Origin: Allorhizocola rhizosphaerae
GTDB taxonomy: Bacteria > Actinomycetota > Actinomycetes > Mycobacteriales > Micromonosporaceae
Direction: 5' to 3'
NCBI RefSeq assembly: GCF_003426775.1
Contig: NZ_QJUG01000007.1
Coordinates: 1 to 64,000, forward strand
DNA length: 64,000 nucleotides
Below the pieces are notes generated by a model. It worked only from the letters and a program-made list of their open reading frames with translations. It had not been told where the DNA came from and searched no databases. Below are positions 6,318-57,210 of the stretch, piece after piece (position 1 is the stretch's first letter; each line of letters begins with the position of its first letter). A program made the translations under genes and the position numbers.

Positions 6318-6362
6318 AACGGCAGAGAATACGGCCACCCGCGCACCGCTATATTGCTGACC

Positions 6363-15336: not shown

Positions 15337-18237
15337 GTGGCGATCGTTCTGCCAAATAGTGATCGGCTGCCACCCGGGCCACGGCGTGAGTTCTTTGAGG
15401 CCCTACATGCCTTATACGACACCGCTGGCCGGCCGGGAGCTCGCGTCATCAGTCTTGCGATCCGCCGGAATCGTGATCTGCCAGAGACGGTGTCGCACGA
15501 AACAGTCAGCGCGGTGCTGCGCGGGGCCTCCGTGCCGAACTGGGCGAAGGTCCACTCCATAGTCTTGACGCTCGCCGAACTGTCGACCCGGGATTATGAT
15601 GTCCGCCACCTGATCCAGAGGCTGCAACAGTTGTGGCTGGCGGCCGGATCAAAGTCAAATCTGGCGTCGCCCGTCGCGCCGCAGGAGCTGAAGATCCCGC
15701 CAAACGTCAGCAAGGTCCCGTCAAGCATCAATGTGGAGCGTCCGGTCATTTCTGACAGCAAGATCGTCAGTGGATTGCCGGATCGCAATCCCTTTTTCAC
15801 CGGCCGCGAGCCCCTCCTGGTCGGCATGCGGGACCGATTGCAAGCCAACCGCCATGCCCCTCTGGTGCTGTACGGGCTGGGCGGCGCCGGAAAGACACAG
15901 CTTGCCCGGGAATACATCCATCGATACGCAGGTACTTACGCGATCATTTGGTGGGTGTCGGCGGACAGCGCTCAGCAGGCGCGCGCATCGCTCGTGGGCC
16001 TCGCCGACCGGCTGCCGGTGCCGATGCACAGCAGTGCCGAACAGACAGTCACTGGCGTGATCCGGCGGCTGGAGTCGGGCCTCTTGCACTACCTTCTCGT
16101 GTTCGACGGGGCCAAGGACACGGAGATCCGGCAACTTATCCCAGCGGTCGGCGGCCATGTGGTCGTGACCAGCCGCGACCCGCAGTGGGCGCATGATCCG
16201 GCGACTGTCGGTCTTGAGGTACCGGAGTTTGACCAGACGGAGGCCATCCAGTTCCTTCGCAGCCGCGGCAATCAGCTGTCTGATCAAGAAGCCAATCGGT
16301 TGATTGAAGCAACCGGCCTGCTTCCGCTCGCCCTCGAGCAGGTCGCCGCGCTACACGAGGCGACCGCACAACCCTGGCAAGAGCTGCTGGCCCAGCTGAC
16401 GGAGCCGGTTCCCGGTCTCCTGTCGGCCGTGCCACCGACTCACTATCCTCTTACGGTCTCCGCAGCGTTGCGGCTCGCTCTCGCTCAGCTCGCAGCGGCC
16501 AATCCAGTAGCCGTGCTGACCATCGAGTTGTTCGCCTGGTTCGGCACGGAACCGGTGTCCATCGTGCTGCTGCGTGCCGGCCGGACCGGCGACATGTCAC
16601 CACCGCTGGCACGTGCCTTGCGCGATCCGATCCAGCTCCGCAGCGTGATAGCCGATATCAACCGGTTCGGGTTGGCCCGCCTGAACGGCGAGACCCAGCG
16701 GATAGAAATACAGCCTCTGATGCGCCTCGCGCTAAGCGATGCCCTGTCATCGGAGGCACTGGAACGGGGCCGACACAACGTGCACGCGATCCTGGCGGCC
16801 GCCAACCCGGGCTGGCCGGACAACTTGGCAAGTTTTGACATGCACCGTGAAATGGCCGCGCACGTGTTGCCGTCCGGCCTCGTAGAGTCCACCGTGGACG
16901 CCGCTCGGCGGGCGGTCTATCACCAGATACGGTACCGCTTCCTCTTCGGCGACTATCGGGATGCGTGCGACCTGGCCGAAACGGCGGTCAAGACGTGGCA
17001 GCGGCCTGATAACTCCCACGGCCAGAACAATGAGTTTGCTCTGCTGGCCACCCGTGAGTGGGCTAACGCGCTCCGGGCGCTTGGTCAGTACCGGCGCGCT
17101 CGGGAAGTCACCGAAGACGGAATGAGACGGTTACTGGACGATCCGCGGTATGGCAGTGAACACGCGCACACGATCGCGATGGCCGCGGGCCTGGCCGCGG
17201 ACCTGCGAATCGCGGGGGAGTACCAGCGGGCGCTGCAAATAGCCGAAGAGAATTCCCGCCGGCACGTCGGCCTATATGGCCAGACAGACCGGCGCACTGC
17301 GGTCAGCCAACACAATCACGCCGTGAGCCTACGGCTTGTTGGCGACTTCGAGGCGGCGCGGGTTGTGGACAAGGTGTTGCTGGACCTCCATCACCAGACG
17401 CTCGGGATGGAGCATAGTGTGACCTTGCTGTCCATGAACGCGCTTGCCGAAGATTTGTACGGGCTCGGCCTCTACCACGAGGCGCTTGATGTGTTGCAGA
17501 CATATCTGCCCGCCCAAACCCGCATGCCGGGCTTCACCGACCGCGCAATGCTCCTGGCCGCCCGCACGGCCGCGCTTGTCCGTCGCGCGCTCGGTGCAGA
17601 GGCAGAGGCGCTGGAGTCGCTCCGAAACCACTATCACGACAGTGTCGTCTCATTGGGCTCCGATCACGAATACACCTTGGCCGCTGCGATGAGCTATGCC
17701 AACGCGCTTCGACAGTGCGGGCAGAACGAAGAGGCATACGTGCACGCCACGGACGCGTTGGGTGCATACAGGCGGACGTTGGGGCGGCGCAATCCGCTCA
17801 CTCTCGCCGCGGAGGTGAACCTGGCCGTCATCCTCCGTGCCCAGGGCGAGCGCCACCGGGCTGCTCAGGCCGACAGTCTGACCACTGAGGCGCTGCGTAA
17901 CACGGTCGGGGCCCAGCATCCGTTCACCATCACAGCACTGGTCAATCTTGCGACGGATCACTCGCAGCTAGGCGACGACGTAGGTGCCCGACGCCTATCG
18001 GAGAACGCGTATGAACTCGCCAAGCGGTTCCGCGGCGAGAGCCATCCGGTCGCGTTGGCGGCGGGAGCCAACCTTGCCCTCGACCGGATTGCCACCGGCG
18101 AGCCGGAGGGCGTCGCGCAGCTGGTAGACAGGGTGCTGGCGGGCATTCGGAATTCACTGGGCCCAGACCATCGGATGTTGACTGAGGTTGACAGTGGTCT
18201 CCGGATTGAGTGCGACATCGAGCCCCCCTCCACGTGA
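15337..18237 (+). CDS. fxsT: FxsT-like STAND NTPase: HTH, NB-ARC and TPR protein
   Basis: A 966-residue protein. Residues 15-100 form a helix-turn-helix-like region (GRPGARVISLAIRRNRDLPE, VSHETVSAVLRGASVPNW). An NB-ARC ATPase (about 150-430) has P-loop GLGGAGKTQ (180-188), Walker B LLVFDGAKD and sensor TSRDPQW. From about 520 onward it is tetratricopeptide repeats, ending in CDIEPPST. This architecture is that of the FxSxx-COOH-system TPR protein, a switch-like STAND protein found beside RiPP precursors. The usual FDNADD after Walker B reads FDGAKD here. The GTG start at 15337 has GGAG 8 nt upstream. It precedes the precursor, radical SAM and HExxH genes on the same strand and is probably the sensor or regulator of that set. 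Confidence 0.85.
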   Translation: MAIVLPNSDRLPPGPRREFFEALHALYDTAGRPGARVISLAIRRNRDLPETVSHETVSAVLRGASVPNWAKVHSIVLTLAELSTRDYDVRHLIQRLQQLWLAAGSKSNLASPVAPQELKIPPNVSKVPSSINVERPVISDSKIVSGLPDRNPFFTGREPLLVGMRDRLQANRHAPLVLYGLGGAGKTQLAREYIHRYAGTYAIIWWVSADSAQQARASLVGLADRLPVPMHSSAEQTVTGVIRRLESGLLHYLLVFDGAKDTEIRQLIPAVGGHVVVTSRDPQWAHDPATVGLEVPEFDQTEAIQFLRSRGNQLSDQEANRLIEATGLLPLALEQVAALHEATAQPWQELLAQLTEPVPGLLSAVPPTHYPLTVSAALRLALAQLAAANPVAVLTIELFAWFGTEPVSIVLLRAGRTGDMSPPLARALRDPIQLRSVIADINRFGLARLNGETQRIEIQPLMRLALSDALSSEALERGRHNVHAILAAANPGWPDNLASFDMHREMAAHVLPSGLVESTVDAARRAVYHQIRYRFLFGDYRDACDLAETAVKTWQRPDNSHGQNNEFALLATREWANALRALGQYRRAREVTEDGMRRLLDDPRYGSEHAHTIAMAAGLAADLRIAGEYQRALQIAEENSRRHVGLYGQTDRRTAVSQHNHAVSLRLVGDFEAARVVDKVLLDLHHQTLGMEHSVTLLSMNALAEDLYGLGLYHEALDVLQTYLPAQTRMPGFTDRAMLLAARTAALVRRALGAEAEALESLRNHYHDSVVSLGSDHEYTLAAAMSYANALRQCGQNEEAYVHATDALGAYRRTLGRRNPLTLAAEVNLAVILRAQGERHRAAQADSLTTEALRNTVGAQHPFTITALVNLATDHSQLGDDVGARRLSENAYELAKRFRGESHPVALAAGANLALDRIATGEPEGVAQLVDRVLAGIRNSLGPDHRMLTEVDSGLRIECDIEPPST

Positions 18238-21157: not shown

Positions 21158-24100
21158 TTATGTCGGCGTCGACTCGATGTCACCCTCGGTGCGCTGACCC
21201 TGTTCTATCGCGGTGATCTGAGGATGATCCTCGCCGAGGGCCTCCCGCAAACCCGCGATCGACTCTGCGAAGAGCGCATCCGATCCCTGCTGGTCGCCTA
21301 TCGCCCGGAGGTCGTGCGCCAGATTGATCGCTCGCATCAGGGCGTAGGGATGCCTGGCGCCGCCACGCGCCTCATGCCCGTGACCCGCCAGGTGAGTGCT
21401 GAGTTCCAGCATTTGCCTTGAGAGCTCCGCGGCAGCCTCATGTTCGCCGGCGAGTGCGTAATCGGTCGCGAGGGACGCACCAGCGCAGACCGTGTACGGA
21501 TGATCCGGCGCGAGCACCCGGGTCAACTCCCGATAGCAATGCTGGTCCAGCTCGCGGGCACGGTCCGGTTGCTGGCACGCGCGAAAGAGGATCGCCTGGT
21601 TGACCAGCGCCACAAGAGTGAGTGGATGAGAAGAGCCGAAATTTTCTTCATACAGTGGCAGAGTATCGGCCAACTGGCGCATCGCCTCGTCGAGCTCGCC
21701 CAACTCTCGCAACACATTGGCGTAGCTGACGTTGATGGCTACCGAAAACTCGTGCACGAGTCCGAACCGGTTGTGCACCCGCTCCTGATTCTCTTGAATG
21801 ATCTCGGCGGCCTCGGATAGCCTGCCGGCCTTTCGCAGTAAGATGGCGTGCGTGCGCCCGGCCAGGAGCACCTGGCTGTGCCTCGGGCCCACAAGCTCCA
21901 ACAACGGAGAGCGCCACCGCTCCAGCACGTCCAGGCCCGCCTGGTAGGCACCCATACCGTAGTAGCTGCGAGCCATGTTGATGTATGCGGACAGCGCGCG
22001 GTGGTCGCCCGCACCAACAGTTTCCCAGTGCGCGGCGACGTCTCGATCCAACCGAAGCGCCTCGGCGAAATTGCCGACCATGCGCTGGTCGACTGCCAGG
22101 TTGCTTTGCGCGCGCAGCGTATATACCTCGGTTGGCCCGAACACTTCGCGGTGCAACGCGAGCAACTCCTGGTCGAAGTCGAGTGCCTCCTGATAACGGC
22201 CCTGGATCCGCAGATCGTGCCCGATCTGGTTACCCGTGATCAGCGTGATTTCATGCTGGGGCCCGAGGTCCGGGTTGCGCCGCAGCCGATCGTACGTATC
22301 GCGGGCCAGCAGAGCGGCGGGTCCACTGTCGCCAAGGGTCCGCATGGCGTTGGCCGCGCGTGCACGTGCCACCAGTGTCAGGTCCCCGTCGGGCCCCAGC
22401 CGGGTGCTTGACATGTCCTGCTCCCAGGCTTCCGCAGCCTGCAGCGCGAGCCGTCGACTGTTCTCGTAGTCACCCACGAGATACAGATAACGCGTGTGGT
22501 CCAGGACAGTCTGCCGTGCAGCCATGCTCTCGGCGTGGATCAGATCAGCCGGTTCGATGTGCGGACCCAGTTCACGTTGCCGGTGCAGTTCCCCTTGCTC
22601 ATCCGGGTCACCCGGATTGGCCGCGGCCAGTATGACTTGAACATTCTTCATCGCCTGCGCCGCCAAATCGGTGGGCAGGCTGTCCCGCAGGACGCGTTGC
22701 ACAAGCCGGTGTACCTGAATCCGCTGCGTCGGATCGACCTTTGCCAGACCATAACGGCTCAGCGTCCGGATGGCGCGGTTAACCGGGATGGCGGCACCCA
22801 GCATCTCGCGCAACGGCTCAGAGACATCAGCGTTCTTACCGTCGCGCAGGAGCGAGACTGCAATCGGCTGGCCGCCCAAATAGGCGAAAAGTTCGAACAG
22901 CTGAGCAGTTGCCGGGGCAGTCGAACGCAGTTCCTGTATGGCGAGGTTGACAAATGCCGCCACGGTCACCGGGTAGCCTGGCGGCTTGCCCTCAGACAGC
23001 AGATCCTTGATATGAGTGTCGAGAAGGGTGAGGTATTCGTTTATCGGCATCGCCGTGGCCAAGTGCCACGCAGCGGCCTGTTCCAGGGCTAGCGGCAGGT
23101 CGCCGAGTTTGTCCGCCAGTTCGTCCGCCTCGCCGATGGTGATGCGGAAGTTCCCAGTATTGTCGTCCTGTGTGCGCCTCTGCAACAGTTCCACACTCTC
23201 GTGGCGTTCAAAGACATCCACTTCAATGGCCTGGCCGACGGTCGCCCACTCTTGGTTGCGCGAGGTGAGCACGACGTGGCCGCCGGTTGACGGTATGAAT
23301 TGATCGAGCGAGCCCAGGTCGTCGGCGTTGTCGTAGACCAGTAGCCAGGCCAAGTCGCTGCTCGACAGGGCGTCGAGCACTGTCCGCGCGGTCTGCTGTG
23401 GATCCTCGACAGTGGTGGTCAGCCCAAGTCGCTCCGCGAGTTGCGACAGCGACGTGAGCACGCTTGAGGTGTGCTCAGCGGGTATCCACCACACCAAGTC
23501 ATACTCATCGATATTGCGGTAGACATACTCGACGACCAACTGGGTCTTGCCCACGCCGCCCATGCCTTGCAGTGTCTGCGGCAATACGGAGGCTTTGGAG
23601 CTGCTTCGCAGGGCCTCACTGAGCCGGTTGAGAAGCGCCACTCGGCCGATGAAATTCCGGTTGCGGATCGGCACACCGCCGCCCCAGATGACTCCGATGT
23701 GTGGCGGTTGGTTCTCTCCGGTCAAGGTGGCCGTGCGTTCGTCCGACGGGACGTGTGACTGCCGACGTCCGGCATCGCCATGTTCGCCTTTGGCGCCAAG
23801 GACAGCGAGGGTCGTGACGTCCGCACCGAGACCGCCGGCCACCATGTTGATCCACTGACGCAGCTCCACCGATCTTGGCTCACCCACGACGGAAGCCAGC
23901 CGGCTAGTGAATTTCAATAGTTGCGAAATGCCGTCCCCTGGGAGCGGCAAACGTTCCATCACACGGATCGCCGCCGGAATATCCTTCCAGCTCTGCAACG
24001 AACGCAACTCGTCGGCACCGACCAGCTCGCCCAGCGCATCGGCGACTTGCACGATGCCTATGGCCGTGAGATGGACGCTCAATGACTCCCGGTCAGCTGG

Positions 24101-24412
24101 CGACAGCACGGAGGCGCCCACCAGATCATCCACGAGCACCGCGACACGCGAGCTTGCTTCGCCCGGGTAGCGCCGCCGCAAAAGTGCCGCCAGCGTGCGC
24201 AGGCCACCGGAATATGCCATGCAAGATTTCGTTAGTGACACCAGATCGTCGCGGCTATCAGGGGGCCGCGGCGAGTCAAAAGGCCGATGCAGGACGGACC
24301 TCAACTCGCCGGCCAACGCCTCCCGCGCACCGGAATCGGACAGCTCCGGCACCTCCAGGAGCGCATCGACGATCAGATCGACATTCCCACGAGCATCAAC
24401 GACGTCTGACAT
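21158..24412 (-). CDS. Second STAND NTPase: effector-associated domains, NB-ARC and TPR
   Basis: A 1084-residue protein. Residues about 11-97 (VDLIVDALLEVPELSDSGAR, LTKSCMAYSGGLRTLAALL) look like an effector-associated domain of bacterial conflict systems. Residues about 100-195 look like a second helical adaptor of similar kind. NB-ARC occupies about 252-500, with P-loop GMGGVGKTQ (283-291), Walker B LLVYDNADD and TSRNQEW. TPRs run from about 590 to the end, finishing GDIESTPT. The NB-ARC/TPR part parallels the FxsT-like protein at 15337, including the Asp-Ile-Glu C-terminal tail, but the N-terminus is an adaptor rather than HTH. It converges on the HExxH gene. It probably recruits an effector with a matching adaptor, which I do not see in the window. 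Confidence 0.8.
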   Translation of the reverse strand: MSDVVDARGNVDLIVDALLEVPELSDSGAREALAGELRSVLHRPFDSPRPPDSRDDLVSLTKSCMAYSGGLRTLAALLRRRYPGEASSRVAVLVDDLVGASVLSPADRESLSVHLTAIGIVQVADALGELVGADELRSLQSWKDIPAAIRVMERLPLPGDGISQLLKFTSRLASVVGEPRSVELRQWINMVAGGLGADVTTLAVLGAKGEHGDAGRRQSHVPSDERTATLTGENQPPHIGVIWGGGVPIRNRNFIGRVALLNRLSEALRSSSKASVLPQTLQGMGGVGKTQLVVEYVYRNIDEYDLVWWIPAEHTSSVLTSLSQLAERLGLTTTVEDPQQTARTVLDALSSSDLAWLLVYDNADDLGSLDQFIPSTGGHVVLTSRNQEWATVGQAIEVDVFERHESVELLQRRTQDDNTGNFRITIGEADELADKLGDLPLALEQAAAWHLATAMPINEYLTLLDTHIKDLLSEGKPPGYPVTVAAFVNLAIQELRSTAPATAQLFELFAYLGGQPIAVSLLRDGKNADVSEPLREMLGAAIPVNRAIRTLSRYGLAKVDPTQRIQVHRLVQRVLRDSLPTDLAAQAMKNVQVILAAANPGDPDEQGELHRQRELGPHIEPADLIHAESMAARQTVLDHTRYLYLVGDYENSRRLALQAAEAWEQDMSSTRLGPDGDLTLVARARAANAMRTLGDSGPAALLARDTYDRLRRNPDLGPQHEITLITGNQIGHDLRIQGRYQEALDFDQELLALHREVFGPTEVYTLRAQSNLAVDQRMVGNFAEALRLDRDVAAHWETVGAGDHRALSAYINMARSYYGMGAYQAGLDVLERWRSPLLELVGPRHSQVLLAGRTHAILLRKAGRLSEAAEIIQENQERVHNRFGLVHEFSVAINVSYANVLRELGELDEAMRQLADTLPLYEENFGSSHPLTLVALVNQAILFRACQQPDRARELDQHCYRELTRVLAPDHPYTVCAGASLATDYALAGEHEAAAELSRQMLELSTHLAGHGHEARGGARHPYALMRAINLAHDLRAIGDQQGSDALFAESIAGLREALGEDHPQITAIEQGQRTEGDIESTPT

Positions 24413-47150: not shown

Positions 47151-48986
47151 CTAGCGGCCCGACAGCCGCCAGGTCTGGTTCAGTGGGCTGCTTTGGGTGA
47201 CCGGACGGCAGGTCCACTGGTGGACCAGCGCCCCCGGTGCGGTGGATATGGCGTTGACATCCACGCACTTGCCGCTGTGCCGGACGACGAGCTGATAGTC
47301 GCGCGGGTCGTTGCCGGCGTACGTCACCTTCCGGAGGGTGAGCTGCTGATTGGTACCCCCATGGCAACTCCATTGGATGATCGCGGCGCCGTCGGCGGTG
47401 GATGCGCCGTTGACGTCCAAGCATTTACCGCTTTGCCGGTTGACGGCGGTGTAGGCGTCGGCGACTCCGGCGACCGGACGGAAGTCCCACAGCTGCTGGT
47501 TGCCGCCATTGCAGGTGTTCTGCTGCTGCTGGGTTCCGTCGGCGGTGCTCGCGTTCGGGTTGTGCAGGCACAGCTGGGAGTGCTGCGCGATCGCGGCGGA
47601 CGCGAAGCCGCCGCCACCACCCGACGGCGGGAGCAGGGTGATGGTGAAGGAGTCGTCGATGTTGGAGTGCGGCAGGTTGACCGTCGCGGCGTTGTTGGAC
47701 AGCGTCACGACCGTGTCCTGAATGGTCACAGGTCCGCTCACCGCGCCGCCGCCGTTGTGGGGGATGCGCTGTGCGACCACTCGCACCTGGTTGTTCACGA
47801 CGATGCCGCTGGTGGTGTCCAGGCGTTGCAGGTTGACGGCGATGTTTCCGGTGGTACGGCCGCCTCCCACCAGGATTTTGGCATTGCCGGAGTCCTTCGT
47901 GGCGAACGCGTCGTAGTTGGCGCTCGGCGTGACCTGCGCGATGGCGCCGGTCTGTGAGCCGTAGAAGTGGTAGACCCACCATTCGCCCTTGGGTTGGTGC
48001 TGGCCGGACACGCGCGTGAGCAGGTTGCCCAGGTCGTTGTGGAGATTGCCGGCACTGGCCCAGTTGGCGCGCAACCCGTCGGCGCCGGCCCGTTCCAGCC
48101 GGGCGATGTACCACGAGCCGTCGCCGGGGTTCTGCTCGTTGCTCGCGCCATATTCGTTGATCTGGTACGGGCGCGGGTGGGGGATACCGCGCGAGTTGAG
48201 CGTCGTGTTGGCGGTCGCGACATTGGCGACCGGGTCGCCGGGCAGGCTGTGCCAGCTGATGATGTCGGGAATCGTGTTGGTCGATTTGATGAAATCGAGG
48301 TACTGGGGCCACCAGCCGCTAGTCGAGGGTACGCAGGCACAACTCGGCCCGACGATCAGGTGGCTCGGGAACTCGGCGCGGATGCGCTGGTATGTGCGCC
48401 GCCACAGCTCGAAGTACTGCGACTGTGACCGGTTCCAGAACGGGGTGATGTTGGGCTCGTTCCAGATGTCCCACTGGACCGGCGCCCCGGTCGCGCGGAC
48501 GTCGTTGAAGAGCCGGGTGAGGAAGTTGTCGTAGTCGGTCCAGTTGCCGTTGTCGCCCGGGAAGCGGGAGATCGGGTAACCGTCGGCTCCCCACAGGTCG
48601 TGCGGCAGGATGATGAACTCGCCGCCCAGCGCTCGGGTGCGAAGTAGCTGGGCACGGGTGGAGTTCCAGCGTCGGTCGTATCGGCCTGACACCCAGCCGC
48701 CCGGACTGTCCAGCTGAGCGCCGCCGGCGCGCATGTAACGGAACTTCACGTCGGTGAAGAAGTGGTCGGCCGGCCCCGAGCCGTCCTCGGTCATGCCGTA
48801 GATCCAACCGGAGGCACGGTAGGTGGGAGAGCCTCCCGCGACCGAGAAGTTGACGCTGATCGACTCATCGGCGGCTTGCGCCGCCGGGGCCGGCGCGAGA
48901 AGGAACGCGGCCACCAGGGCGGCGACTGAGGCCAGCGCGATCGGCAGCCTTTCTCGCCGGTGCTGGATGTTCGATGCCGGATCCAA
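47151..48986 (-). CDS. Secreted GH39-like glycosidase with ricin B lectin domain
   Basis: A 611-residue exported enzyme. The signal peptide (about 12-39) is followed by a clan GH-A-like barrel (about 45-370) with acid/base Glu177 in WDIWNEPNI and nucleophile Glu278 in YQINEYG. A beta-sandwich (about 370-460) and a ricin-type lectin (about 475-611, repeated SGKCLDVNGAST and HSGKCVDVNAIST units) complete it. The barrel closely parallels the cytoplasmic protein at 55463, so both should act on the same linkage, one outside and one inside. The TTG start at 48986 is supported by AGGAG 6 nt upstream. Two LacI-type operators lie in its promoter region. Confidence 0.85.
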   Translation of the reverse strand: MDPASNIQHRRERLPIALASVAALVAAFLLAPAPAAQAADESISVNFSVAGGSPTYRASGWIYGMTEDGSGPADHFFTDVKFRYMRAGGAQLDSPGGWVSGRYDRRWNSTRAQLLRTRALGGEFIILPHDLWGADGYPISRFPGDNGNWTDYDNFLTRLFNDVRATGAPVQWDIWNEPNITPFWNRSQSQYFELWRRTYQRIRAEFPSHLIVGPSCACVPSTSGWWPQYLDFIKSTNTIPDIISWHSLPGDPVANVATANTTLNSRGIPHPRPYQINEYGASNEQNPGDGSWYIARLERAGADGLRANWASAGNLHNDLGNLLTRVSGQHQPKGEWWVYHFYGSQTGAIAQVTPSANYDAFATKDSGNAKILVGGGRTTGNIAVNLQRLDTTSGIVVNNQVRVVAQRIPHNGGGAVSGPVTIQDTVVTLSNNAATVNLPHSNIDDSFTITLLPPSGGGGGFASAAIAQHSQLCLHNPNASTADGTQQQQNTCNGGNQQLWDFRPVAGVADAYTAVNRQSGKCLDVNGASTADGAAIIQWSCHGGTNQQLTLRKVTYAGNDPRDYQLVVRHSGKCVDVNAISTAPGALVHQWTCRPVTQSSPLNQTWRLSGR

Positions 48987-49132: not shown

Positions 49133-49144
49133 CGAATCGTTTCG
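49133..49144. promoter_or_regulatory. LacI-type operator CGAATCGTTTCG
   Basis: One mismatch to the CGAATCGATTCG consensus. It is about 147 bp upstream of the secreted GH39-like glycosidase start. Confidence 0.65.
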
Positions 49145-49211
49145 CACAGCGTAAATTTGATTCTGATAGATGTCAATCTTGTGTCGGCGAACAGCAGGCG
49201 GCCCTGGCAGC

Positions 49212-49223
49212 GGAATCGATTCG
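49212..49223. promoter_or_regulatory. LacI-type operator GGAATCGATTCG
   Basis: One mismatch to the consensus. It is 68 bp from the previous site, in the same intergenic region between the GH63-like and GH39-like genes; the pair would allow looping or cooperative repression. Confidence 0.65.
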
Positions 49224-49268
49224 CTACCGACGGTTCGCCACGACCCGCTCTTTGCGCCGTGTTTTGGG

Positions 49269-51032
49269 TCAGCGCGCCGCGGCGTCGGCGGTCCCCTGCT
49301 GTGCGCGATCGCCCACGGGAATCTGCGCCCGGCGGCGCTGTTCGGCCGCTGCGAGGTGCAGATAGCCGCTGGCCGTCCAGGTGTAGGCGCGGTCGCGCAG
49401 GCCCATGCCGGTCAACGCGTCGAAGTTCTCCGCGAAGCCGGACCTTTCGCACAACGCGCGGAAGCGTTGGCTGACCTCATTGGCGAGCTCGACGTGACCG
49501 GCACGGCGCAAACCATCCTCGATCAGTACGGTGGCCGGCGCCCAGATGGGTCCGCGCCAGTACCCGTCGGCCGTGTAGTGCGTAGAGGTTGGCAGCTCGG
49601 TGGCGAGGCCGTGTGGCGTCAGATGCCGGCGAATGCGGGCGGCCAAGGCGCCACTGATTTCGGTTGGCAGTTGCTCGCCGAGCACGATCGGCATGAGATG
49701 CAGCAGGCTGGAGGTGGACCAGGTATCACCCGACACCGGGGAGCGCGCGACGAAGCCGTCGCCGATCCACAGCTGCTCCAGCAGTGCCGTGCGCAGTTCG
49801 CCGGCCTGCCGGGCCCAGCCTTCCGCGGCTTGCGGGTCGCCGAGCCGCCGGGCCAGATCCGCCAGTTCAACCATCTGCAGGACAAGGAACGCAGCCAGGT
49901 CCGGGGTCTGGATCACGCGCTCGGTGTCGAAAGTGGTCGCGTTGTCCCATCCGCTGTCGTTACCGTGCTGATAGTGCGCCAAAGCGCTGCCCGGCACCCG
50001 CCGTTCGGTGAGCCAGAAGCCGGTCCATGCGGCCAGATTTCGGTACGCCGCAACGATTTCGGTATCCGGAAGGCTCGGGATGCGCTGGCGCAGCTCGCGC
50101 AGTGCCCAGCCGTGGATCGGCGGCTTGACGAAGTTGTAGAGAACCTCGGAGTGGGTGATGGAGTCAGGCAACGCCCCTGCGGGATCCTGGTGCTCGAAGA
50201 CCAGCCGATACTGGTCCCAAGCCAAATCAGGGGCGCCGTCGGCCAGGGCGAGGGCGTTGAAGCAGTGGTCCCAGCTCCACACCTTGTTCATCCAGTGCTT
50301 GGACATGAGAACGGCCGGCCGGGTGATGAAGCCGGCGGGCCGCACGGTCGCCGACCACAGCACATAGGCGGCCAATTCGGCGGCTGGTGTGTGCTCGTCC
50401 CGCCACGGCGCCACCGCGTCGACGAAATTATCAAAAGCGGCCTGTGCGTGGGCAATGACCTCTTCAAAATTTTTCTGGTACCGGTAAGGCGCACGCGCGG
50501 TCGCGAACTCCTCGATGGCGATCTCCCACGTGCCACTGTCACGGCCGATCGCCAGCTCTCGCCGGGCCGTGCCAAGCTGCTGGACTCCGGTCGCCTCGGC
50601 CGGCGCTCCAGACAGGACGGTGATCCGGTACCGGCGGCCCGTCTCGTAAAGCGTGTAGATGTGCGCCCCGTCAACGGGATCGCGAAACAGATACGGCCCG
50701 CTGAACGGTGTCAATGTGAGCTCGGCGGCGGCGATCCGCATGGCCAGGCCGACTCCGCGTACCCGGACCGTATCCGTCGTCTCGTACGCCAGCTCGATGG
50801 TGCCGCGACCGTCGCCACGCCACAGAAGCCGTGCCGGGGTCGCCGTGACAGCGGTACGCGCCGCGGGCACCAGGCGCAGCACCGGATGCAGGCCGTTCTG
50901 ATGTGAGACGAGGTGGATGTCCTCCGCGAACTTCTTTTCGCCGATAACGGGAGAGAAGTTGAACCAGGAGCCGTGGTGGCTGAATGGGATCTCCTGGAGG
51001 GAAAACTCCGGTCCTGCGCTGGCAGCGTTCAT
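49269..51032 (-). CDS. GH63-like (alpha/alpha)6-barrel glycosidase, cytoplasmic
   Basis: A 587-residue enzyme without signal peptide. An N-terminal beta-sandwich (about 1-200) precedes a six-hairpin barrel with MNKVWSWDHCFNALALA, GNDSGWDNATTFD, TPDLAAFLVLQMVELA and YWRGPIWAPATVLIEDGL, typical of GH63 and related glucosidases/mannosylglycerate hydrolases. The Asp in GWDN is the likely general acid. It follows the two permeases and SBP on the same strand, so it probably degrades the imported oligosaccharide. ATG 51032 is used; an AAGGA lies 14 nt upstream and the frame is open further upstream, so the start is not certain. Confidence 0.85.
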   Translation of the reverse strand: MNAASAGPEFSLQEIPFSHHGSWFNFSPVIGEKKFAEDIHLVSHQNGLHPVLRLVPAARTAVTATPARLLWRGDGRGTIELAYETTDTVRVRGVGLAMRIAAAELTLTPFSGPYLFRDPVDGAHIYTLYETGRRYRITVLSGAPAEATGVQQLGTARRELAIGRDSGTWEIAIEEFATARAPYRYQKNFEEVIAHAQAAFDNFVDAVAPWRDEHTPAAELAAYVLWSATVRPAGFITRPAVLMSKHWMNKVWSWDHCFNALALADGAPDLAWDQYRLVFEHQDPAGALPDSITHSEVLYNFVKPPIHGWALRELRQRIPSLPDTEIVAAYRNLAAWTGFWLTERRVPGSALAHYQHGNDSGWDNATTFDTERVIQTPDLAAFLVLQMVELADLARRLGDPQAAEGWARQAGELRTALLEQLWIGDGFVARSPVSGDTWSTSSLLHLMPIVLGEQLPTEISGALAARIRRHLTPHGLATELPTSTHYTADGYWRGPIWAPATVLIEDGLRRAGHVELANEVSQRFRALCERSGFAENFDALTGMGLRDRAYTWTASGYLHLAAAEQRRRAQIPVGDRAQQGTADAAAR

Positions 51033-51072
51033 CAAAATCGTTGGCTTCCTTGGTACCTGGAGATTATGGGAT

Positions 51073-51891
51073 TCAGTCCTTGACCGCGCCTGCGGTGACG
51101 CCCGCCGCGACGAAGCGCTGGGCGATGATGAGCAGTGCGGTGGCGGGGATGGACGCCACGACCGCGGTGGCCATGACGGCGTTCCATTCCTGGTTGTTGT
51201 TGCCGATGTAGTGATAGATGCCCAGCGTGATCGGCCGCAGCGCACCGCCGCTGTCGAGCGTGCTCGCAAAGATGAAATCCGACCACGCCCACAGGAAGGT
51301 GAACAGCGCCACCGTCACTGTCGCGTTGCGACTGATCGGCAGCACCACCGAGACGAACGTACGCAGGCGGCCCGCGCCGTCCGCGATCGCCGCCTGAAGC
51401 AATTCATTCGGTATACCACTCATGAAGGCGGTGTAGATGAGTACTCCAAACGGGACTGCGATGGTGGTGTCAGCGACGATCAGCCCGGGGAGGGTGTTGA
51501 GCATGCCGAGGTTGAGCAGCGCCGCGTAGTAGCCCATCGCCATGATGATGGCGGGGATCATCTGGGCGATGAGCAACAGAAAGCTCAGCGCCGCACCGCC
51601 TTTCGGTTGCAGCTTCGCCAGCGCGTACCCCGCCGGAGCGGCGATCACGAGGGTCAGCGCGACGGTGCCCAGTCCGACGACGAGGCTGGTCGCCAGATAC
51701 GGCAGCTGCTGGTCCAGCACGGCGCGGTACCCATCCAGGGTGCCGTCCAACGGGAAGAGGCCGGGCGGCTGCTTGCGCATGTTCTCGGGCCGGGTGAAGG
51801 AAACGTTGACCATCCAGTAGACGGGGAACAGCATGACCGCGGTCACGATCAGCCCGATCAGGGTCTTCCACCAGGTTCGCTTCGCGGTCAT
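51073..51891 (-). CDS. Sugar ABC transporter permease (MalG type)
   Basis: A 272-residue CUT1 permease with six transmembrane helices and EAA loop LLQAAIADGAGRLRTFVSVV then LPISRNAT. The C-terminus QRFVAAGVTAGAVKD is typical of MalG-like subunits. Its ATG overlaps the stop of the MalF-type permease by 4 bp. It is the third gene of the SBP-permease-permease-GH63 operon, and no dedicated ATPase is present. Confidence 0.93.
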   Translation of the reverse strand: MTAKRTWWKTLIGLIVTAVMLFPVYWMVNVSFTRPENMRKQPPGLFPLDGTLDGYRAVLDQQLPYLATSLVVGLGTVALTLVIAAPAGYALAKLQPKGGAALSFLLLIAQMIPAIIMAMGYYAALLNLGMLNTLPGLIVADTTIAVPFGVLIYTAFMSGIPNELLQAAIADGAGRLRTFVSVVLPISRNATVTVALFTFLWAWSDFIFASTLDSGGALRPITLGIYHYIGNNNQEWNAVMATAVVASIPATALLIIAQRFVAAGVTAGAVKD

Positions 51892-52781
51892 GCCTGCTGC
51901 CTCCGCTGTACCCGGATGTAGATCAGCCCGAAGAAGAGCGCCATGATGATCAACAGGTTGCCGACCGCGGCTCCGGGGCCGAACTGCGGCAACGGGTTAC
52001 CGAAGCCGAGCCGGTACGACCAGATGGCAAGCGTCGTGGACGAGTCGACCGGCCCACCCCGGGTCATGATCCAGATGATGTCGAAGACCTTCAGCGTGTA
52101 CACCAAACCGAGCAGCAGCGTGATCGCCGAGACCGGTCGCAACAGGGGCAACGTCACGTGCCAGAAGTGTTGCCAGCCGCCGGCGCCGTCCAGGGCCGCG
52201 GCCTCGTGGATGTGGTCCGGAATGGTTTGCAGTCCGCTGTAGAGCACGACGAGGTTGAACGGAATGCCGATCCAGATATTGGCAATCGTCACCGAAACGA
52301 GCGACCATTCCGGCGAGGTGAGCCAGTTGACCTGCCCCACCCCGACAATGCCGAGAGCGGTGTTGACGATTCCGGACTCGCTGTTGAGCATCCACGACCA
52401 CGTCGACGCCGAGACGATCAGCGGCAGCAGCCACGGCACCAGGAATAGCGCCCGCAGGGTATGCGAGAGCCGGAAATGCTGGTTGAAGAACAGCGCCAGC
52501 GCCAGACCGACGGTGAACTGGAACAGCAGTGAGAGCGCCGTGAATGCCAATGTGTGGGTGAGTGCCGGCACAAATGTGGGGTCGGCCAGCACCGCTCGAT
52601 AGTTTTCGGCGCCGATGAATGGCGCGTCGCCCATGACGAACGACCGGACCGTGTACTCGCGCAGGCTCAGGTCGACATTGCGGTACAGCGGGTACGCGTA
52701 GAAGGCCACCAAGTAGACCGCGATGGGGGCGAGAAACCCCCATGCGGCCCACTGCGACTTCACTCGTGATTGGACATTCAT
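51888..52781 (-). CDS. Sugar ABC transporter permease (MalF type)
   Basis: A 297-residue CUT1 permease with six helices and EAA loop IHEAAALDGAGGWQHFWHVT then LPLLRPVS. It starts 7 bp after the SBP stop and overlaps the next permease. It forms the channel with the MalG-type partner. Confidence 0.93.
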   Translation of the reverse strand: MNVQSRVKSQWAAWGFLAPIAVYLVAFYAYPLYRNVDLSLREYTVRSFVMGDAPFIGAENYRAVLADPTFVPALTHTLAFTALSLLFQFTVGLALALFFNQHFRLSHTLRALFLVPWLLPLIVSASTWSWMLNSESGIVNTALGIVGVGQVNWLTSPEWSLVSVTIANIWIGIPFNLVVLYSGLQTIPDHIHEAAALDGAGGWQHFWHVTLPLLRPVSAITLLLGLVYTLKVFDIIWIMTRGGPVDSSTTLAIWSYRLGFGNPLPQFGPGAAVGNLLIIMALFFGLIYIRVQRRQQA

Positions 52782-52788
52782 CGCGACG

Positions 52789-54030
52789 TTACTTGGTGGC
52801 GGCCGCGGCCGCTTTCTGTGCGGCGGCCAATGCGGCTTGCGGTGGCTGGGATCCGCTCAACGCCGCCTGTACCGCCGTCCATAGCTGTTGCGAGATCTTC
52901 GGGTACTTGGTGCCCAGGTTGTCACCGGTCCGCCCCTTGGCGGCGGCCACCGCGTCCACCCATACCTTCAGTTCGGGATTCGCGGTGACCTGCTTGGCCT
53001 GTACCTGCTTGGTCGGCGCTATGTACGACAGCGTCGTGGTCGTCGCCAGCGAGTTTTCGGAAGAAGCGATGCAGGACACCAGTTTCTGCGACACGCTGTA
53101 GCGCGCCGTGTCCTTCTGCACCGGCACGCTGACGAATTCGCCACCCGTCGGCGCCGGAGCGGTACCGCCATTGATCGCGGGGACCGGGATGATGCCGTAC
53201 TCGAAACCCGTCTTCTTCGCGTTGGCCAGTTGCCAGGTGCCGTTCTCGGCGAAGGCGTACTCACCGGTGGCGAACTCCTGCCAGCTCGTGGTTTGCGTGT
53301 TCTGGATGACCGAGTTGGGCGCGTACCCCTGTTTGAGCCAGTCGGTCCACAGGGAGAGCGCCGACACCGCGGCCGGTGAGTCCAACTGGGTCAGGTTCGC
53401 GCCGGAACCCCAGAACCACGGCAGGAACTGGAAACTGCCCTCCTCGGTGCCGATCGCCGAGAAGGTGATGCCCTTCTTCCCGGCCGCCTTCACCTTGGCC
53501 AGCGCCGCATTCAGCGACGCCCAGTCCTTGACGGTCGCGATATCGACGCCGGCGGCCGCCAAGACCTTCTTGTTGTAGTACAGCGCCAGGGTGTTGGCGC
53601 CGATGGGAACCCCGTAGGTCTTGCCACCGATCTGGCCGGCGTCAAGCAGGTTTTGCTCCACCGCGGCCGTATCGATCTTGGTCTCGCTCGTCGCGGTCAG
53701 CACACCCGCCTCGGCCAGGGTCGAGATCACAGGGTTGTCCACGATGAGCACGTCCGGTGCCACTGCCTGCTGCGCCGCGAGCAGTACCTTGTTGGTCAAA
53801 TCCGTGGTGTCATAGCCTGTCCGGGTGACTGTCACACCGGCGTCCTTGCCGCACTTTTGCAGCAGCGCCACCCAGGCCGAGCCGGCGTCGAACTGCGGAT
53901 ATGGATCCCAGATCGCGTAGTTGGTCGGTGAGTCGTTCCCGGTGCCCTGTGCCGTGCATCCGGCCATGCCGCCGGCGAACACCGCGGCGGCCAGTGAGAT
54001 CAGGCTTAGCCTGGTGAGGGACGATCGCAT
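52789..54030 (-). CDS. Sugar-binding lipoprotein of ABC transporter
   Basis: A 413-residue family 1 solute-binding protein. The signal peptide has lipobox MAGC (Cys at about 24). The SBP pattern appears as NYAIWDPYPQFDAGSAWVAL, VLIVDNPVISTLAEAG, YGVPIGANTLALYYNKKVL and FAENGTWQLANAKK. The ligand is probably the oligosaccharide released by the secreted GH39-like enzyme (inference from the shared operator). The start has AAGGA 9 nt upstream. The 28-bp double operator lies 65-92 bp upstream. Confidence 0.92.
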   Translation of the reverse strand: MRSSLTRLSLISLAAAVFAGGMAGCTAQGTGNDSPTNYAIWDPYPQFDAGSAWVALLQKCGKDAGVTVTRTGYDTTDLTNKVLLAAQQAVAPDVLIVDNPVISTLAEAGVLTATSETKIDTAAVEQNLLDAGQIGGKTYGVPIGANTLALYYNKKVLAAAGVDIATVKDWASLNAALAKVKAAGKKGITFSAIGTEEGSFQFLPWFWGSGANLTQLDSPAAVSALSLWTDWLKQGYAPNSVIQNTQTTSWQEFATGEYAFAENGTWQLANAKKTGFEYGIIPVPAINGGTAPAPTGGEFVSVPVQKDTARYSVSQKLVSCIASSENSLATTTTLSYIAPTKQVQAKQVTANPELKVWVDAVAAAKGRTGDNLGTKYPKISQQLWTAVQAALSGSQPPQAALAAAQKAAAAATK

Positions 54031-54094
54031 CGTTGCTCATCCTTCGTGTGCGGGACAGATTGGCGGAAGATTTGCCTCATGCTTTGCCTCACGT

Positions 54095-54122
54095 GTCGAA
54101 CCGATTCGCGAATCGGTTCGAC
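54095..54122. promoter_or_regulatory. 28-bp perfect palindrome: two tandem LacI-type operators
   Basis: CGAACCGATTCG (54097-54108) and CGAATCGGTTCG (54109-54120) are directly adjacent and are reverse complements of each other. With flanking GT/AC they form one perfect 28-bp palindrome between the divergent SBP operon and LacI gene. Confidence 0.8.
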
Positions 54123-54199
54123 CGACAATAGGCCCGGGTCGGCTACCGGTCAATACTTGCTTCGGCACGGTTGAGGTATGCTGGCTCAGACGGAAGGCT

Positions 54200-54211
54200 C
54201 GAATCGATTCG
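54200..54211. promoter_or_regulatory. LacI-type operator CGAATCGATTCG (consensus)
   Basis: A perfect 12-bp palindrome located 22-33 bp upstream of the LacI regulator start, positioned for autorepression. Confidence 0.75.
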
Positions 54212-54232
54212 TGATCCAGGTATCGGAGGCAC

Positions 54233-55261
54233 ATGGACATCGGTGAGATCGCGCGCAGGGCCGGCGTCTCGCGCAGCACCGTCTCTTACGCCCTCAGCGG
54301 GAAGCGGGCCGTTTCCGAGTCGACCCGGCGGCGCATCGAAAAGGTGATCGCCGAAGCGGGATACCGGCCCAATGCCGCCGCCCGTGCGCTGAAAGAAGGT
54401 CGCACGCGGACCCTGGGCCTGGTCATCCCGCCGGCGAGCCAGCGGCTGACCGACATGCAGCTCGACTTCGTCGCCAGCGTCGTTGAGGCGGCCGCGCAGA
54501 TCGACCTCGATGTGCTGTTGTCACCCAGCGGCGGTGACCACGACCGGTCCTTCGAGCGGCTGGTGACCGGGCGCCGGGTCGACGGCGTGATCGTCATGGA
54601 GATCAGGCTCGAAGACGCCAGAGTGGAGCGCTTGCGGCAGACCGCGCTGCCCTTTGTCGGGATTGGACGCACGGCGGACCCTGACAGCATGTCGTGGATC
54701 GATGTGGACTACGGCAACCTCATCACCCGGTGCGTCGACCACCTTGCCGACCTCGGGCACACCCACATCGCGCTCATCAACCGGTCTGAAGAGCTGGTCG
54801 CGTCGGGATACGGCCCGGGACACCGCGCTCTGGCCGGATTCCTGGAGGCGGTCGAGCGGCGCAACCTAACCGGCGTCGATGTGTGTTGCGCCGACGATCG
54901 CGTCGCCGGAGAGGCGCGCTTCGATGAACTTCGCGCCCGGCATCCGGAGGTCACCGCTATCGCCACGATCAACGAGGCGGCCCTGCCGGGGATCGAGCGG
55001 GCACTGGCCCGGCATGGGATGACCGTGCCACGCGACTTCTCCATCACCGGTGTTGTCGCGCAGCACTGGGCCGAATACTTCCGCCCTCCGTTGACGGCGG
55101 CCGACGTGCCGGCGCATGAGATCGGCGCCCGCGCGGTCGAGCTACTCCAAGAACAGATCGCGACGCCGGGCACGCCACCACGGCACATCCTGCTGGCTCC
55201 GCCGATAGCACTGCGTTCCAGCACCGGCCCGGCCCCACGCATGACACGGCACGATGGGTGA
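54233..55261 (+). CDS. LacI-family transcriptional repressor
   Basis: A 342-residue regulator. The N-terminal helix-turn-helix (DIGEIARRAGVSRSTVSYAL) and hinge helix (YRPNAAARALKEGRTRTLGL) precede a periplasmic-binding-like ligand domain (about 60-340). Its own promoter and those of the SBP operon and both GH39-like genes carry CGAATCGATTCG-like sites, so it is the evident local repressor, released by an imported sugar. GGAGG precedes the start codon at 54233. It is convergent with the cytoplasmic GH39-like gene. Confidence 0.95.
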   Translation: MDIGEIARRAGVSRSTVSYALSGKRAVSESTRRRIEKVIAEAGYRPNAAARALKEGRTRTLGLVIPPASQRLTDMQLDFVASVVEAAAQIDLDVLLSPSGGDHDRSFERLVTGRRVDGVIVMEIRLEDARVERLRQTALPFVGIGRTADPDSMSWIDVDYGNLITRCVDHLADLGHTHIALINRSEELVASGYGPGHRALAGFLEAVERRNLTGVDVCCADDRVAGEARFDELRARHPEVTAIATINEAALPGIERALARHGMTVPRDFSITGVVAQHWAEYFRPPLTAADVPAHEIGARAVELLQEQIATPGTPPRHILLAPPIALRSSTGPAPRMTRHDG

Positions 55262-55462
55262 ATGCGGGTCCTCACCCGGCTGTGGATTCGATCGCTCCTC
55301 CTGCTGATACGCCACTGGCCATGGTGGACACCGCGATGTGAGCATCACCCTTGGCGGCTCGCCACCGCCGCAATCGGTTACACCGGATTGGAGCCGGAGC
55401 CGTTGGTTTTACAGTCCCAGGCCGGACAGCCATGCCCCGCATTGAGCCCAGGTCGTCGTCAT

Positions 55463-56824
55463 TCAGGCAGTGCCCGGTGTGTTGGGCCACAGGCCACCGG
55501 CGGCCGACTTGCGCTTGTCGGGTGGTAGCAGTGTGACCGCGTAGCCGTCGTGGGGGTCTGTCCACGGCACGGTCACCGATGCGGTACCACCGCTGACTGG
55601 CAGCACCTGGTCGGAAACCGTGATCGGGCCCCGGATAGCCGCCTTGTTGTTGTAGGGAAAGCGGTAGAGAACGGCCCGGACACGGCCGCTTTGCTCCACC
55701 GGTGTGGTGGTGAGCCCGGTCAAGCTGACGGTCACGTCGCCGGTGACGCCTCGGTTTCCAAGCAGCACGTGGGCAACGCCGTCGTCCTTGGTGGCGTAAC
55801 CATCGGCCGCGTTGCCCGGCGTGACGGACACCCGGGTGCCGCTCATCGCCGCGTAGTGGCGGTAGAGGAACCAGTCCGCCAGCGCGACGTGCCGGCCGCC
55901 TTCACGGGCCAGCATGGCGGCCATGTCGTTGTGCAGGTCCGATCCTGATGCCCAGTTGGCGCGCAGGCCGTCGATGTCGTTTCGCTCCAGCCGAGAGATG
56001 TACCAGCCGGAGTTCGCGGGGTTCTGCTGACTCGGCCAGCCGTACTCATTGATCTGGTATGGCCGGGCGTCTATGCCTTTGCCCGACAGCAAGGCATCCA
56101 TCGCCTGCCGGGCAGTGGTGGGATCGACGGAGACGATGTCGTCGTTGAGGGAATGCCAGCTGACGATGTCCGGTACGACGTTGTTCGCCTTCACGTAGTG
56201 GAGATAGCCGTTCCACCATGGGTCTTCCGCACTGGGCGAGCGGCTGGTGCTGGCTCCGACGATGACCGCGTCAGGGAATGCGAGGCGGATGCGGGCATAG
56301 GTCCGCCGCCACATCTCAAGGTATTGAGCTTGGCTGCGCTGCCAGAACGAGTCGAGGTCCGGCTCGTTCCAGAGGTCCCATTGTGGGGTCATGTCCGAGA
56401 CCCGGACGTCGGAGATCAAACGGTCGAGGAAGTTGTCGTAGTCGGTCCAGTCGCCGTTGTCGCCGGGAAAACGCGGGCTGGTCGTCCCGTCCGCCCCCCA
56501 CAGGTCGTGCGGCAGGATGATGAACGTCCCACCAAGGCCAGCCGCGCGCCGGTACTGCGCCAGGGTCGAGTCCCAGCGCCGCTGGTAGCGATCCGCCGTC
56601 CAGCCTCCGGGGTTGTCGAGCTGAGCACCGCCGGCGCGTCCGAAACGGAACCTGATGTCGGTGAAGAAGTGGTCGGCAGGTCCAGCGCCGTCCTCGGTCA
56701 TTCCGTAGAGGATCCCCGAGGCGCGATAGACCGGCGCACCCAGCTCGGACGCGAAGTTGACGGTTACCGTGTCGACCGCCGCCAGCACCGGCGGAGGCAG
56801 GGACCGGGAATCGGGTTGGGGCAT
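55463..56824 (-). CDS. Cytoplasmic GH39-like glycosidase (paralogue of 47151)
   Basis: A 453-residue enzyme without signal peptide or lectin. The barrel shows acid/base Glu154 in WDLWNEPDLDSFW and nucleophile Glu260 in YQINEYGWPSQ, with GILYGMTEDGAGPADHFFTD and FIILPHDLWGADG matching the secreted paralogue. A C-terminal beta-sandwich (about 345-440) completes it. ATG 56824 has GGAG 6 nt upstream; a TTG at 56917 would add an unrelated N-terminus. An operator copy lies about 100 bp upstream. It probably finishes digestion of oligosaccharides imported by the adjacent ABC system. Confidence 0.85.
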   Translation of the reverse strand: MPQPDSRSLPPPVLAAVDTVTVNFASELGAPVYRASGILYGMTEDGAGPADHFFTDIRFRFGRAGGAQLDNPGGWTADRYQRRWDSTLAQYRRAAGLGGTFIILPHDLWGADGTTSPRFPGDNGDWTDYDNFLDRLISDVRVSDMTPQWDLWNEPDLDSFWQRSQAQYLEMWRRTYARIRLAFPDAVIVGASTSRSPSAEDPWWNGYLHYVKANNVVPDIVSWHSLNDDIVSVDPTTARQAMDALLSGKGIDARPYQINEYGWPSQQNPANSGWYISRLERNDIDGLRANWASGSDLHNDMAAMLAREGGRHVALADWFLYRHYAAMSGTRVSVTPGNAADGYATKDDGVAHVLLGNRGVTGDVTVSLTGLTTTPVEQSGRVRAVLYRFPYNNKAAIRGPITVSDQVLPVSGGTASVTVPWTDPHDGYAVTLLPPDKRKSAAGGLWPNTPGTA

Positions 56825-56925
56825 GAACGCTCCTGACGGTCCGCGGAACGGGCACGGATCTGCGGGCTCGCCACCGACGCGGCCGTTCCAGCGTAGTAAG
56901 AACCAGGCGGTGGCCAATCACGTGT

Positions 56926-56937
56926 CGAATCGGTTCG
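56926..56937. promoter_or_regulatory. LacI-type operator CGAATCGGTTCG
   Basis: Identical to the right half of the double operator at 54109. It is about 102 bp upstream of the cytoplasmic GH39-like gene. Confidence 0.7.
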
Positions 56938-57210
56938 CCGCCGTCAAGCGTAAGATCAATCAGTCCTCGGGTCAACAGCCCGAAGACTGCTTGACAATGT
57001 GCTTCACAGCCACCAATACCTTGTCCACTGGGAGGTTTCCCGAAAGTCTCATGTGCGCGGCGGACGCGTGGGCGCTCCAGCGGTACCAGATGAGGTGCAC
57101 GCCGGGTCAGCATCGACGCCTTCCGGTAACCGACCCGCCGGGTTCAGAGATCAACACCGCTGAGGGTCGGTTGGGCGAAAGACCAAGGCGCAACGACAGA
57201 GTGACCGCCT

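Follow-up and report, generated by a model that had tools for sequence, protein, structure and literature searches.

In Escherichia coli lac, operators O1-O3 comprise a primary operator at the start site and an auxiliary one some 8 turns upstream, and E. coli GalR lacks a tetramerisation tail. The gal operators share one face of the DNA at a distance of 113 bp (11 turns), where GalR dimers stack to a tetramer and form a loop with HU, with repression best at full turns, as described in the sections of the gal study cited here (PMC4693257). Overlapping LacI-family sites about 13 bp apart are described for 110 operons in the portion of a comparative survey used here, which finds them hard to reconcile with structures (Ravcheev et al. 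2014, PMC4052901). Bifidobacterium BauR and AauR are LacI-family local regulators of arabinosyl glycan use (PMC5928203), and the glycoside hydrolase family 39 (GH39) enzymes GAfase and AAfase of the same genus release arabinose-containing disaccharides (PMC10688797), according to the excerpts of these two papers drawn on here. Here, we describe a locus in the first 64,000 nt (positions 1-64,000, referred to as the window) of contig NZ_QJUG01000007.1 of Allorhizocola rhizosphaerae (GCF_003426775.1), which we read, with a probability of about 0.8, as the regulon of a local LacI-family repressor, serving a plant glycan that contains L-arabinose, with composite, promoter-linked and phased operators.

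Like E. coli gal, the locus has a LacI-family repressor and operators on one face of the helix at whole turns; it differs in that the phasing is read from natural variation in many species, over 49-178 bp, that looping would follow by analogy, and that the ligand is another one. With the overlapping operators of E. coli GntR/gntKU it shares two even palindromes about 13 bp apart, but here the arrangement is kept in one putatively arabinosyl regulon with near-fixed promoter geometry, the base preferences of inner and outer half-sites differ, and the window has a 12-bp form that makes a perfect 28-bp palindrome. As in E. coli lac, a primary operator at the predicted start site is accompanied by an upstream auxiliary operator, whereas the LacI-type C-terminal tetramerisation helix is absent. 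Compared with BauR/AauR, the accessory enzyme is an MGH1-like hydrolase of the GH63 clan rather than a GH36, GH127 or GH121 enzyme. Overlapping 13-bp LacI double operators are already known, and what is new here is the regulon, the conserved composite, the phased spacing and the probable substrate; in a search of a literature library, none of four operator 12-mers was found and no description of the regulon was recognised in the result listings. The genes of the locus are as follows.

54233..55261, plus strand: LacI-family repressor, 342 amino acids (PF00356 and PF13377)
52789..54030, minus strand: solute-binding lipoprotein-like protein (SBP) of a sugar ATP-binding cassette (ABC) importer (PF13416/PF01547)
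51888..52781, minus strand: ABC permease, MalF/UgpA-like (PF00528)
51073..51891, minus strand: ABC permease, MalG-like (PF00528)
49269..51032, minus strand: MGH1-like glycosidase of the GH63 clan, intracellular and encoded last in the SBP operon (PF22422, E=3e-53)
47151..48986, minus strand: secreted GH39-like enzyme with a C-terminal ricin/CBM13 domain (signal-like N-terminus; profile match to GH39 structures)
55463..56824, minus strand: second GH39-like enzyme, by inspection lacking a signal peptide and a ricin domain (both catalytic Glu residues retained)

The original prediction had placed six CGAATCGATTCG-like sites at 49133, 49212, 54097, 54109, 54200 and 56926, and exactly these were recovered, one as a perfect match and five with one mismatch. 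Scanning the whole 64-kb window gave no seventh site at one mismatch or fewer, where chance would yield 0.07-0.4 such sites per window and at most 2 (Markov orders 1-4, 60 simulations each). The looser count, at two mismatches or fewer, is again six and by itself not unusual (shuffle mean 3.8, six reached in 15 of 100 shuffles). Two of the sites, in the divergent promoter, are indeed fused into a perfect 28-bp palindrome, GTCGAACCGATTCGCGAATCGGTTCGAC at 54095-54122. The site at 54200-54211, near the LacI start codon, is a predicted autoregulatory operator. The operators and the promoters that they adjoin are listed below.

54095..54122, no strand: predicted composite operator made of two sites, 54097-54108 and 54109-54120, whose centres are 12 bp apart
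54200..54211, no strand: predicted operator of the LacI gene, a perfect consensus copy whose end lies 22 bp ahead of the start codon
49133..49144, no strand: predicted primary operator at the secreted-GH39 promoter, 3 bp past its -10 box
49212..49223, no strand: predicted auxiliary operator of the secreted GH39 gene, lying 79 bp farther upstream
56926..56937, no strand: predicted operator upstream of the cytoplasmic GH39-like gene
54125..54153, minus strand: sigma70-like promoter of the SBP operon, TTGACC-17-TATTGT, the composite starting 4 bp downstream
49148..49176, minus strand: sigma70-like promoter of the secreted GH39 gene, TTGACA-17-TACGCT, the site lying 3 bp downstream (below the threshold of an automated promoter scan)

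The motif is not frequent across coding DNA when the whole genome is considered, a point that had been singled out as decisive beforehand. Exact CGAAYCGRTTCG occurs at 6 places in the 8.81-Mb genome, 4 at the locus and 2 elsewhere, both of them within predicted genes, and CGAATCGATTCG at one mismatch or fewer occurs at 17 places (6 in the window) versus 2 for a reversed control; 4 of the 11 off-window places are intergenic according to a simple gene caller. The search for further targets that had been proposed, carried out here with mismatch counts, returned exact off-window sites only within genes and one weak regulon candidate, an intergenic CGAAACGATTCG at L253:7765-7776 (C85 of the same genome) upstream of a polysaccharide lyase family 8 (PL8) gene. 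Intergenic single-mismatch sites at C173, C258 and C456 and one at C135 had no convincing target gene, and a pair 12 bp apart at C17 was rejected as an extra target, as it lies within a gene.

The window repressor has PF00356, PF13377 and PF00532 matches above cut-off, and its N-terminal LacI helix-turn-helix (HTH) followed by a periplasmic-binding-like domain places it in the LacI family; its recognition-helix residues appear, by analogy, to be R-S...Y. That the sites instead belong to a global regulator is hardly credible. A LacI paralog at C17 of the same genome, with the similar helix VS...Y, has a related palindrome, TCGAAGCGCTTCGA, nearby, but the exact sites outside the locus are the two within genes, the sites co-occur with the LacI ortholog across families, and R-S...Y was not found among the other LacI-like helices of the genome that were readable (30 of 36 HTH hits fetched). 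An intergenic palindrome, TTGTCGAAGCGCTTCGACAA, near the VS...Y paralog (L250:4105-4116) is probably its operator, differing from the regulon operator only beside the central CG. In one relative, a second LacI with an R-S...Y helix and its own TCGAACCGGTTCGA sites stands beside the ortholog (L104:6515-7516, minus strand), where cross-regulation is possible.

Conservation carries the argument further. Among 150 relatives, 17 have a LacI ortholog at 71-77% identity and one a protein at 44%, the remainder being at 41% or lower, and an ortholog is present in 101 of 354 family genomes, including the genome studied here; the neighbourhoods of the 17 orthologs hold matching genes and operators. These 17 loci were joined by 80 more from a scan of named genomes, and 96 non-identical loci were used, the duplicates L067, L075 and L083 having been dropped before counting. 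Gene starts were anchored by tblastn and are approximate. Exact CGAAYCGRTTCG sites number 249 in the 96 loci, and upstream zones, 9% of the DNA, hold 221 of these. The 11 permuted control palindromes together give 20, one of them upstream. In 60 further loci, hand-picked from the 101 family genomes with omission of known ones and of part of one large genus, 163 operator sites compare with 32 for the 11 controls together. A core gene has at least one exact site upstream in 89 of the 96 loci and in 58 of the 60. An even palindrome with a central CG is kept upstream of the LacI gene and its targets, as expected of a LacI regulon. The loci span actinobacterial families that include, going by family names which we assigned from the genera, Micromonosporaceae, Streptomycetaceae and Pseudonocardiaceae. 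A local importer was not found within reach in 6 of the 17 close-ortholog loci (L054, L056, L057, L059, L060 and L061), where operators still stand upstream of the MGH and GH39 genes. A chance motif was ruled out as an explanation by the Markov models, the genome-wide counts and the permuted controls in relatives.

The fused pair is, judged by its recurrence in relatives, a conserved composite operator. In the first loci, 26 pairs are spaced at 13 bp, 2 at 12 bp (the window and L046), 3 at 10 and 1 at 14, with the next at 23 bp, and in held-out loci 24 are at 13 bp, 1 at 12 and 1 at 21. With looser matching the composites number 64, spread over 58 of the 123 loci, with a spacing of 13 bp in 61 and of 12 bp in 3. 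The arrangement is of the GntR double-operator type; nearly all composites have the 13-bp spacing, and the 12-bp form of the window is the rare one. In clade A (importer/MGH promoters, LacI identity below 86%), 19 of 35 promoters have a composite, 14 a single site and 2 none. The inner half-sites are looser at positions 5-6, and A or T stands beside the central CG in 0.78 of inner versus 0.46 of outer halves (sign test 16 to 3, p = 0.004).

The operators are also tied to promoters. In 45 representatives, a -35/-10 box pair scoring at least 8 of 12 adjoins the site in 18 of 23 SBP, 11 of 12 GH39, 8 of 13 MGH and 15 of 43 LacI promoters that hold a site, versus 2 of 23, 3 of 12, 0 of 13 and 6 of 43, respectively, for random positions in the same regions. 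The operator offsets from the -10 box that were listed range from 3 to 6 bp for SBP and from 3 to 7 bp for GH39 promoters, in a search that permitted other offsets.

Such a geometry by itself explains repression, and it speaks for an ordinary LacI regulon, in which each operator would act as a lone roadblock, additional copies would only raise local occupancy, and the fused pair would be a single target occupied in one of two registers at any time. We consider this unlikely. It would accommodate a clade B without composites, and, as the part of the survey cited here puts it, two dimers at a 13-bp spacing are difficult to accommodate in view of the structures (PMC4052901), but it leaves unaccounted for a spacing held at 13 (rarely 12) with almost nothing between 14 and 22, base preferences that differ between inner and outer halves, and long spacings that are phased in training and held-out loci alike.

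This phasing is seen in operators 49-178 bp apart, whose distances are whole multiples of a turn of about 11.05 bp and which so lie on one face of the helix, as for a GalR-like looping repressor. A training set of 36 representatives (below 86% LacI identity), with 53 distances between neighbouring operator units, gave R = 0.493 at 11.1 bp, a value reached by none of 2000 jitter simulations (p < 0.0005). The period was fixed on this set before the 60 new loci were fetched, and holdout loci too close to the training set were dropped by an identity threshold. At less than 90% identity to the training set and to each other, 17 holdout loci with 24 distances gave R = 0.498 (p = 0.0074); at less than 86%, 10 loci with 14 distances gave p = 0.05; and at less than 95%, with 38 loci and 62 distances, none of 5000 simulations reached the observed value. 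In the pooled set, a scan gave p = 0.004 at 80% de-replication (24 loci) and 0 of 1000 simulations at both 86% and 90%, and the bootstrap period had a median of 11.05 (95% 10.8-11.4). Earlier Rayleigh scans without de-replication had given conflicting periods and were replaced by the de-replicated sets with the jitter null. Distances from site to start codon were unphased for SBP, MGH and GH39 in the 45-locus set and for LacI, SBP and MGH in the 24-locus set.

In-vivo lac looping fits give 11.08, 10.95 and 11.60 bp per turn in the portion of the work cited here (PMC1762422), and GalR-like looping is proposed because the period of about 11.05 bp matches this helical repeat. By analogy, the whole-turn spacing suggests that the repressor works by bending DNA into small loops. 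The phasing could also arise from divergent promoters, through polymerase or supercoiling coupling rather than contact between repressor dimers, which we regard as highly unlikely. Many pairs do lie between divergent LacI and SBP promoters, with near-fixed site offsets from the -10 boxes; yet the phasing is seen in pairs with both, one or neither site at a promoter, and is just as strong in the latter two groups (n=29, R=0.49, p=0.00025, and n=11, R=0.64, p=0.008, respectively), and the GH39 pair of the window, 79 bp apart, serves a single promoter. LacI orthologs stop at about residues 334-342, straight after the core domain, and have no lac-type C-terminal tetramerisation helix. A bolder possibility, to which we give somewhat less than even odds, is a higher-order looped complex in which two dimers of such a tail-less LacI co-occupy the 24-25-bp composite over the importer start site, with inner half-sites relaxed and differently read, and are bridged to dimers on auxiliary operators that selection keeps at multiples of about 11.05 bp.

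Several observations weigh against the regulon as we read it. In 7 of the 96 and 2 of the 60 loci, no core gene has an exact site. In clade B, defined by a Streptomyces-type LacI with less than 62% identity, composites were found in 0 of 3 importer/MGH promoters, and phasing was not significant in this clade alone. The base bias of the composite weakens to 9 to 2 (p = 0.065) with 24 loci below 80% identity. Of the control distances, the one between site and LacI start codon shows weak phasing with 45 loci (p = 0.03), though not with 24 (p = 0.34). Phasing is also weaker for tandem-to-partner distances, with R about 0.3 compared with about 0.5 for single-single ones. Finally, the only GH54 gene of the A. 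rhizosphaerae genome lies elsewhere, with no operator near it.

The enzymes point to the probable substrate. The GH39-like label of the original prediction is right for both proteins: Pfam matches are weak, but profile and fold matches agree. A GH39 profile matches the PDB entries 8uwt (E=4e-62) and 5u22/NF2152 (E=1e-57), the AlphaFold2 (AF2) model of the second protein (pLDDT 83) has its best fold matches in the same two structures, and both proteins group with NF2152 and 8uwt in fold, sequence and both catalytic Glu residues. No closer ortholog of the second protein was found in 90 relatives, where the top hits are mostly secreted GH39s at 50-56%, and one partial 57% match lies elsewhere in G030; from these comparisons, it is a predicted lineage-specific paralog. 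A terminator-like stem at 56961-56989 (minus strand) lies between a PaaX-family gene and the gene of this second protein, which would accordingly form its own transcription unit. The intracellular enzyme labelled GH63 is, by Pfam, an MGH1-like clan-G hydrolase (PF22422) with a predicted fold closest to GH63 YgjK; its AF2 model (pLDDT 89.9) has YgjK as best PDB match (E=2e-24, 15% identity), the Pfam MGH1-like and Trehalase models both match, and its Foldseek neighbours include alpha-glucosidases and mannosylglycerate hydrolase.

The substrate is probably an L-arabinosyl plant glycan, because the GH39s match the NF2152 arabinobiosidase fold and GH54s of relatives stand under the common operator. 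NF2152 is described with alpha-L-(beta1,2)-arabinobiose, and GH39 enzymes as releasing arabinose-containing disaccharides, in the sections cited here (PMC10688797). An operator lies upstream of 7 of 34 GH54 arabinofuranosidases at the loci, 2 of 4 GH43 proteins and 28 of 37 members of a long LamG protein family with a GH39/NF2152-like domain, and of the genomes that have the LacI ortholog 17 of 18 carry GH54, versus 8 of 22 of those that lack it (p=2e-4). A non-arabinosyl glycan, such as xylan or an alpha-glucan side chain, is possible though somewhat unlikely: the GH39-like clade is polyspecific and GH39 also includes beta-xylosidases, and the MGH1-like enzyme is a relative of alpha-glucosidases and mannosidases, with alpha-glucosidases and mannosylglycerate hydrolases as Foldseek neighbours. 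The closest solved enzymes, however, are 8uwt and NF2152, the latter linked to arabinobiose in the excerpt cited (PMC10688797), and the GH54 genes under the operator in 7 loci and their genome-wide co-occurrence argue for arabinose.

In the proposed model, a LacI dimer would bind TCGAAYCGRTTCGA. At the importer promoter, two dimer sites fused 12 bp apart, about 4 bp downstream of the -10 box, would cover the transcription start, and at the secreted-GH39 promoter a primary operator 3 bp past the -10 box would act with the auxiliary operator 79 bp upstream. The secreted GH39 may free an X-arabinose disaccharide, and the oligosaccharide it cuts would be imported, whereupon it or a product would release LacI; the MGH1-like (GH63-clan) enzyme, which may cut X from arabinose, and here the signal-less GH39 paralog would finish it inside the cell. 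The sequences fit the roles assigned beforehand to the secreted GH39, with its signal-like N-terminus and ricin domain, the importer and the cytoplasmic GH63-like and GH39-like enzymes. Footprinting, genome-wide specificity and promoter geometry together lend strong support to the idea of a single LacI regulon that shares one operator. A complete set serving one glycan may be what the locus represents, but no ATPase gene for the importer was found at the locus and there is the weak extra PL8 candidate at C85.

Elsewhere in the window, a protein at 12677-14284 (minus strand) combines a nucleoside-phosphorylase-like N-terminus with a C-terminal Thoeris ThsA-type macro domain (Pfam, PADLOC) and is possibly a defence-related fusion. 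Two NB-ARC and TPR proteins, at 15337-18237 (plus strand) and 21158-24412 (minus strand), the latter with effector-associated domain EAD2, and a large leucine-rich-repeat and TPR protein at 4137-7589 (minus strand) had no PADLOC match. Scans of the window for tRNA and Rfam families found nothing.

With this regulon, an uncharacterised gene cluster gains a probable substrate class. It offers dozens of natural 13-bp variants and three at 12 bp, in a near-fixed promoter position, which makes the structural puzzle of overlapping sites testable, and the phasing is sequence-only evidence for GalR-like looping across actinobacteria, with a period close to that of E. coli lac loops. If the model of co-occupied composites and phased loops is true, it would help to explain how LacI dimers tolerate a 12-13-bp spacing, and natural operator spacing across actinobacteria would be an evolutionary record from which the helical repeat in vivo can be read directly.

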